Shown here: positions 34,042 to 35,271 of the stretch, piece after piece
How positions within the stretch are numbered: the stretch's first letter is position 1
How the letters are laid out: each line of letters begins with the position of its first letter
Assembly: GCA_949284445.1 (NCBI GenBank)
Contig: CASDVP010000001.1
Coordinates: 186,001-250,000, forward strand
Length of the DNA stretch: 64,000 nt
Source: an uncultured Bacillota bacterium
GTDB lineage: Bacteria; Bacillota_I; Bacilli_A; RFN20; CAG-288
Direction: 5' to 3'
Notes under the pieces: generated by a model
Databases searched by the model: none
What the model saw: the letters and a program-made list of their open reading frames with translations, nothing else
What the model was told of the DNA's origin: nothing
Made by a program: the position numbers and the translations under genes

Positions 34042-34307
34042 ACTATAAAATCCCCTTCGTGATTTTATTATATCAAATTCATAATTTTTATTAATCATAA
34101 CTTTTGTTCTTTAGATGGTTTGTTGAGTAAGAAATATCAGATAATTGTGATTAAACAGTCTGTGCTTAATTGAAATTTAACTGTGAATTTTAAATCATTA
34201 AGAATCCTTTAAGTTTTCAATAAAACCATATTGTTAATAGTGACATCTCCTTATTACACTATTAGATTGTATCAGAGTGATAAATTGAAAATAATTTAAT
34301 ATAAAAG
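34042..34307. other. Intergenic region upstream of the lipoprotein
   Basis: About 265 bases between the lipoprotein start and the terminator of the candidate structured RNA. It must hold the lipoprotein promoter but no clear -35/-10 pair stands out. Confidence 0.4.
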
Positions 34308-34349
34308 TAAAAAAGACCCAGTTAAGCAATTCAACAATTGTTAACTGGG
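34308..34349 (-). terminator. Rho-independent terminator of the candidate large RNA
   Basis: On the minus strand CCCAGTTAA (34349-34341) pairs with TTAACTGGG (34325-34317) and runs into a T tract. No protein gene ends just before it on this strand. Confidence 0.8.
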
Positions 34350-34750
34350 CCTACCCGTGTGAACTCTCATCATTAGTAGTAGTTAAAATAGTTTTATCTC
34401 CCTTCAGATTGTTTACACAATCGCTGTTAGATTAATCGTCTCAACACATATCGACAACAACATTTCTCGACAACGTCCCTTCACATCTCTACTTTCGACA
34501 CGTAATTGTATTTCTTCCCATCTTCATGTTCATACGGGCTAAACGACTACTTCTCATCTCTTCACAACTACGACTTTTGGGCTTTTCCTAATAGCTATAG
34601 CGATTTATTAGGTTTCCCGTTTATCAGACATTTCACATTTATTTTTATCTCGATATCTATGACAGAAAACTTTCAACTAAATTTAATCTAGCCTTAAATC
34701 CATCTATCACATCTATTTCTATAAACCAGTTATTGAATATAGAAATTTTC
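34308..34750 (-). ncRNA. Candidate large structured noncoding RNA
   Basis: No protein-coding frame on this strand, yet the sequence is full of pairing. Seen on the minus strand: GATTGT-GTAA-ACAATC (34422-34407), a perfect hairpin with a GNRA tetraloop; GGG-AAA-CCTAATA paired with TATTAGG-AAAAG-CCC (34618-34579); an outer helix TAAACG / CGTTTA (34623-34618 with 34545-34540) that competes with CCCG/CGGG pairing; and repeated TGTCGA segments. A strong terminator closes it. The 5' end is not certain. The size would fit large RNAs such as OLE or ROOL, but I see no signature that assigns it. Confidence 0.5.
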
Positions 34751-34956
34751 TCAACTTAACTAAACGTTAATACTTTAAAGATAAAGGTGATTAAAGATAG
34801 CTTTGCTAAGAAAGCTGAGATAGAAAAATAAGATGATAAATCTGATAAATAGAATGAAATGAGAACTACACGACTATATCAATTGGCCTATGATATACAA
34901 ATATTAAGAAAATAGTAATCTGTTAATGTAAGAAAATACTTACTGTAGAAAAAGAG
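34751..34956. other. Intergenic region between candidate RNA and HPr-like gene
   Basis: AT-rich. A weak hairpin AGCTTT / AAAGCT (about 34799-34817) lies here. The promoter of the structured RNA is probably within it, but I cannot place it. Confidence 0.35.
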
Positions 34957-35223
34957 TTAGAAGCGATATTCTTTGCAGAGTTTTTCGAAACCTTTTTGAG
35001 CTTCGACTTCATCTTCACCATCGCATTCGATAGTGATAACTTCACCCTTACTGATTGGAGAGAGAGCAAAAACATTCATAATAGATTTGAGATCGCACTC
35101 TTCGCCGTTCTCAATTTTTAAGGTGATGAGACATTTGTGGTGATTAGCTTCTTCAACTAATTCAGCACTTGATCTAGAAGTTAGACCATTCATGTCATTG
35201 ATCGTAATTTTGTAACTTGTCAT
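34957..35223 (-). CDS. HPr-family protein without catalytic His (Crh-like)
   Basis: 88 residues from ATG 35223. The fold and spacing match HPr: the active loop reads NGLTSRSSAELV, so position 15 is Thr where HPr has the phosphorylated His. The regulatory serine is kept as S47 in LKSIMNV. Bacillus Crh also lacks His15 (Gln there) and keeps Ser46; HPr kinase phosphorylates it and it then helps CcpA. HPr kinase is encoded at 49193-50203. A perfect cre box overlaps the -35 element of this gene. It cannot act as a normal sugar phosphocarrier, so a regulatory job is likely. Confidence 0.85.
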   Translation of the reverse strand: MTSYKITINDMNGLTSRSSAELVEEANHHKCLITLKIENGEECDLKSIMNVFALSPISKGEVITIECDGEDEVEAQKGFEKLCKEYRF

Positions 35224-35242
35224 AGAATTTCTTAGCACCTAT

Positions 35243-35271
35243 ATTATAAAAAAATCTGTAAGCGATTACAA
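35243..35271 (-). promoter_or_regulatory. Promoter of the Crh-like gene with cre box
   Basis: TTGTAA (35271-35266), 17 bases, TATAAT (35248-35243). The cre box TGTAAGCGATTACA (35257-35270) overlaps the -35 element, so CcpA binding there would be expected to repress. Confidence 0.75.

Follow-up and report, generated by a model that had tools for sequence, protein, structure and literature searches.

Genomic context of the RNA element

The window, by which we mean the whole 64,000-nucleotide stretch that was analysed, covers positions 186001-250000 of contig 1 of a 1.47 Mb genome from an uncultured Bacillota bacterium. On its minus strand, a promoter-like site, an HPr-like gene, an RNA element and an intrinsic terminator follow one another in that order (Table 1). 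The original prediction had placed a structured noncoding RNA at 34308-34750; this holds, but the element is longer, running on the minus strand from 34898 to 34309. The strong minus-strand terminator noted there is present as GGCCCAGUUAA..UUAACUGGGUC with a U run at 34351-34310, and its upper stem covaries between species. We consider it very probable that the element is a genuine structured non-coding RNA; it is presumably transcribed.

Table 1 Features of the locus, in window coordinates
Feature	Positions	Strand	Basis and remarks
Promoter-like site TTGTAA-17-TATAAT, upstream of HPr-like gene	35243..35271	-	Consensus scan, 10/12
HPr-like gene (PF00381), just upstream of element	34957..35238	-	Pfam E 2.4e-17
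Whole RNA element	34309..34898	-	~590 nt, 5' hairpin to terminator; limits by conservation with 11 further same-genus genomes
5' hairpin UAUAUCA..UGAUAUA, GGCC in loop	34875..34898	-	Conserved across members
5' domain, closing helix UUUAUCAGAU (34849-34840) with partner (34631-34622)	34622..34849	-	Predicted; MFE and centroid fold
Palindrome hairpin CCUAAUA - aauc - GCUAUAGC - UAUUAGG	34587..34612	-	Per-genome shuffles
Array segment 1 (GUUGU GAAGA GAUGA GAAG)	34550..34568	-	Profile HMM; strict 3x pattern match at 34565
P1 long-range helix, 5' strand GCCCGUAUGAAC	34528..34539	-	Per-genome search and covariation
Array segment 2 (GUAGA GAUGU GAAGG GACG)	34474..34492	-	Profile HMM; strict 3x pattern
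Array segment 3 (GUCGA UAUGU GUUGA GACGA)	34436..34455	-	Profile HMM; strict 3x pattern
Hairpin H3, GAUUGU-GUAA-ACAAUC	34407..34422	-	Shuffles, p 0.008-0.2 per genome
Conserved purine box GAAGGGAG	34398..34405	-	3' alignment; AAGGAGG-like in G002, G008 and G005
P1 long-range helix, 3' strand GUUCACACGGGU	34353..34364	-	Per-genome search and covariation
Intrinsic terminator hairpin and U run	34310..34351	-	Sequence; upper stem covaries between species (alignment)

The promoter-like site comes from a consensus scan in which shuffled sequences yield as many sites overall, and it is not in itself evidence of function. The product of the HPr-like gene aligns to the solved structures of HPr and Crh. 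His15 is the phosphorylated residue of HPr; in the family alignment, this catalytic position is occupied by threonine in all 17 aligned relatives, while the Ser46 motif KSIMNV is kept (KSILNV in two relatives). We take the combination of a threonine at position 15 and a retained Ser46 region to be the pattern of Crh, which would make the protein regulatory and not a phosphocarrier, and the gene presumably one of sugar signalling. The neighbouring RNA may be linked to HPr signalling. Several sister-genus genomes have a tRNA gene in place of the RNA after the HPr-like gene.

Homologues across the genus

A DNA search of 98 relatives returned a single full-element match, G004, with 87% identity; the remaining matches covered mainly the terminator of G001, G007 and G011. 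Because these terminator matches had the same neighbour, we fetched the regions downstream of the HPr-like gene across the whole family. Among the 14 same-genus genomes that yielded the HPr-like gene, 12 show the gene-plus-RNA layout, a count that includes the window's own genome (G000) and one element cut by a contig end; downstream of the gene in G012 and G014 the RNA is absent. Outside the genus, the HPr-like gene is followed by other sequences and not by the RNA. Searching with the exact 5'-hairpin sequence gave five named records, including DLIM01000016 ('Bacillales bacterium UBA7642'). The window's genus is probably GTDB UBA7642, in the class Bacilli.

The comparison set consists of twelve sequences from uncultured assemblies, for which the structural alignment was built by hand. 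Complete elements measure 143 to 724 nt, and the short members G006 and G009 (about 145-150 nt) have neither the long-range helix P1 nor the palindrome hairpin. Pairwise alignments of close species reveal conserved blocks interrupted by hypervariable stretches. The initial idea of one compact fold therefore finds no support in these modular homologues.

Conserved helices and palindromic loops

The dense minus-strand pairing that had been noted at the outset was borne out: without its terminator, the minus strand folds more stably than dinucleotide shuffles (z = -4.1, 0/100 shuffles), while the plus strand does so weakly (z = -1.7). The stem of the 5' hairpin is preserved between species via paired changes. 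Its loop contains GGCC in most members and GAUC in G006; G005 has no GGCC loop. The helix UUUAUCAGAU that would close the 5' domain is predicted in the window and G004 only, on the strength of folding and not of covariation. Soon after the 5' hairpin, most members (for example L042) carry a conserved pyrimidine box, ACCCUUUC, which is not found in the window or G004; pairing between it and the 3' GAAGGG box is conceivable in some species.

P1 closes off the final ~190 nt ahead of the terminator, including H3 and the GAAGGGAG box, and spans 147-203 nt across members. Its strands are GCCCGUAUGAAC/GUUCACACGGGU in the window, CUAGCUGAAC/GUUCAGCUAG in G005, CAUCCGAUGGAC/GUCCAUCGGAUG in G001 and G011, and AUCCGAU(U)GGAAC/GUUCCAUCGGAU in G007. 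As automatic alignments of the 3' domain misplaced P1 and H3, the strands of P1 were paired by hand and H3 was assessed by shuffles. Counted on this hand-paired alignment, in which the bulged U of G007 was omitted and a short filler loop placed between the strands, 9 of the 12 pairs of P1 changed on both sides over five distinct rows, a result equalled by 0/500 shuffles; sliding the strands against each other abolished the signal. Compensatory pairs, which the original prediction had proposed to look for among homologues, are present. Since the helix had been picked by searching, we reran the search on shuffled sequence, which gave p = 0.04 for the window (G000), 0.03 for G005, 0.0025 for G001 and 0.005 for G011. 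For G007 the value was 0.26 with the bulge disallowed, and in G002, G008 and G013 P1 is weak or absent and not significant by the same comparison.

Within P1, a hairpin with a GNRA loop had been predicted at 34422-34407. The hairpin, H3, is present exactly, yet without conservation of its GNRA loop: most members have a hairpin at this position with a differing stem and loop (8 bp capped by CAA in G004, loops of 4 to 15 nt in others), and G005 has none. These assessments come from per-genome shuffles, the automatic pair count being affected by misalignment. In most members this hairpin lies 5' of the GAAGGGAG/AAGGAGG box.

Upstream of P1, the 7-bp helix CCUAAUA/UAUUAGG with flanking GGG/CCC pairing (34618-34579) and the outer helix UAAACG/CGUUUA, both recognized in the original prediction, are present on the minus strand. 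The loop of the former holds an exact 8-nt palindrome, GCUAUAGC, shared by G000 and G004; in G001, G005, G007 and G011 the loop is GCCAUGGC. The stems presenting these loops are unrelated in sequence yet complementary in G000, G004, G005, G001 and G011, and shorter or interrupted in G007. Per-genome shuffles gave p values of 0.006-0.06, except for the 4-bp inner stem of G007, which was not significant. The palindrome was not found in G002, G008 or G013.

Phase-locked five-base arrays

The hypervariable stretches between the conserved blocks are arrays of a degenerate pentamer, D-K-H-H-G, in strict 5-nt phase. This five-base periodicity is the main oddity of the element and was missed by the original prediction. 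Units are mostly GAGAC or GAGAU, as in GAGAC GAGAU GAGAC GUGUC GGGAA, and GAG is the commonest triplet. In 10 of 11 members, the autocorrelation of G at lag 5 is higher than in dinucleotide shuffles (z 2.6-6.2; 3.7 for the window); G005 has no lag-5 G excess, and the profile HMM finds no array in it. Set against the remainder of the window, both strands included (mean -1.6, sd 4.7), the element has a lag-5 contrast of 18, and 1 of 2538 overlapping segments reaches a value as high. The 64 kb contain five strict three-unit matches; three of them fall within the element, each on the sense strand.

A six-state HMM trained on the 12 members describes the unit as A/G/U - G/U - A/U/C - C/U/A - G. A and C do not occur at position 2, nor does G at positions 3 and 4; position 5 is G with a frequency of 0.92, and the phase slips at 0.2%. 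According to the HMM, the arrays are short in the window's genome and in G004. Pattern searches within the genus found the arrays essentially confined to one locus per genome, and beyond the genus (the order; 395 genomes of the class) returned scattered chance-level matches only.

In the sister genus, an intergenic stretch of G020:C12 (L058:1440-1790) contains GAGAC, GAGAA and GAGAU units and a terminator and has matching ends, GGAAGGAAUG / CAUUCCUUCC. No close homologue of this candidate was found; it may be a distantly related RNA of this kind that sits at a different locus.

Comparison with known RNAs and RNA-binding proteins

Scanning the whole window with cmscan at the Rfam gathering cut-offs gave no matches, and relaxing E to 10 over 34050-34990 gave two chance-level snoRNA matches and nothing meaningful. 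The families that had been suggested for comparison (OLE, ROOL, GOLLD, RNase P, tmRNA and 6S) are thus without a match. The element resembles OLE, ROOL and GOLLD in that it reaches about 720 nt, folds into multiple helices with covariation, and has palindromic loops and variable linkers. In contrast to them, it has period-5 arrays and a fivefold length range, has so far been seen in one genus, and lies near neither tRNA arrays nor phage genes. A short open frame late in an RNA of 350-700 nt is reminiscent of tmRNA; however, the genomes have an ordinary tmRNA elsewhere (over the cut-off at G000:C3:183325-183722 in the window's genome), and the element has no tRNA-like ends.

TRAP reads a (GAGUU)n register of GAG/UAG triplets with 2-3 nt spacers (PMC4854314). 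The arrays likewise repeat GAG/UAG triplets 2-3 nt apart (unit G-D-K-H-H, period 5), and thus share with TRAP (MtrB) targets the G-A-G runs every five bases and the two-base non-G spacers. They differ in that the unit also permits U and G in place of A, and in that up to about 16 consecutive units occur in the 3' region of a structured RNA. TRAP itself is not found in the genus: PF02081 was absent in 15 genomes, with the control detected in B. subtilis. The presence of many short-motif repeats in one RNA, presumed to bind protein, recalls CsrB, CsrC and RsmY. Unlike those RNAs, the element repeats G-D-K-H-H in fixed phase and not GGA in hairpin loops, and CsrA (PF02599) was absent in 14 genomes, the control being detected in three.

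Interpretation and alternative explanations

We propose, with a probability of roughly 0.4, that the element is a structured non-coding RNA whose protein-binding array acts as a sink or platform. The RNA would either form the 3' portion of the Crh-like HPr mRNA or be made immediately downstream of it. Its 5' hairpin, palindrome-loop hairpin, P1 with H3 and the GAAGGGAG box, and terminator would serve as fixed blocks that hold out the arrays, probably single-stranded, as repeated sites for an oligomeric RNA-binding protein, with one unit per subunit. Such an RNA would be a multi-site sink or platform for the array-binding protein, like TRAP GAGNN targets or CsrB-type sponges, and may also pair with itself. 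The binding-array mechanism, taken alone, is tentative. A repeating protein surface is the expected reader because the array constrains base identity in a fixed register while tolerating changes elsewhere; since searches of the genus turned up no TRAP or CsrA, we suggest a different protein.

The length of the gap between gene and RNA would also suit a regulatory 3' UTR, in which the fold sets the stability or translation of the HPr-like message, the arrays are spacers and there is no role in trans. In G005 and G001, where only 20-23 nt separate the stop codon from the 5' hairpin, co-transcription is likely, and the consensus scan found no promoter-like site in the gap of the window. However, a terminator-like hairpin lies inside the gap of G013, the two genomes lacking the RNA retain the gene, and spacers would need neither strict phase nor a fixed G, which leaves this explanation rather doubtful. 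The palindromic loops raise the prospect of a homo-oligomeric scaffold like OLE, ROOL and GOLLD, with GGCC and GCCAUGGC loops pairing between copies and the arrays serving as disordered linkers. Palindromes are indeed replaced by palindromes (GGCC by GAUC in G006, GCCAUGGC by GCUAUAGC in G000 and G004), and for OLE and GOLLD, switching of this kind has served as an argument for symmetric kissing loops (PMC12286853). Two switches are thin evidence, however, and with one or the other palindrome missing from G005, G002, G008 and G013, we judge this scaffold unlikely.

A 10-13 codon peptide encoded at the 3' end behind GAAGGGAG, with the remainder as its leader, is improbable. In G000, G004, G001, G011, G007 and G005, a Shine-Dalgarno-like box does precede a short open frame whose end lies directly before the terminator (..TTNNEDCSSIG in G011, TTTNDESSHG in the window), but no ATG, GTG or TTG start lies at a proper distance, and G002 and G008 do not retain the frame. 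The second half of the frame coincides with the 3' strand of P1, and this accounts for its conservation. The G-rich words are strand-polar, and the resemblance of AGAAGGG to known polar segregation motifs offers a lead; that the repeats act as DNA, for example in chromosome segregation or replication, is nevertheless highly improbable given RNA-type compensatory pairs, a conserved terminator and one locus per genome. Least credible is a decayed protein gene or a neutral satellite repeat, despite the low-complexity look and variable length: the three sense frames of the window and G011, stops masked, gave no Pfam match, the helices covary, and neutral satellite decay is disfavoured because the unit positions are spared so unequally.

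For the proposed array-bearing RNA, the pairing of a covarying structure with a fast-evolving, phase-locked code points to a repetitive RNA-binding protein outside TRAP and CsrA. Large bacterial RNAs without a known job are few and difficult to find from conservation alone. It is an unlikely, more far-reaching suggestion that the element represents a new class of RNA, associated with a Crh-like HPr: its folded scaffold would pair with itself and carry a phase-locked degenerate pentamer array read by a ring- or filament-forming protein (TRAP-like or other), the array renewing itself quickly between species with its code kept.

Genetic code at the locus

For some species of the genus UBA7642, translation of AGG as methionine has been reported (PMC8629427). 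In the window, AGG is rare (17.5 per 10,000) and ATG normal (195 per 10,000); no reassignment is therefore seen here, and the code is the standard one. In G011, the open frames near the locus (L042) contain AGG about as often as ATG (18 versus 19 in 974 codons), above the other members, a frequency that could stem from GC content or from spurious overlapping frames.
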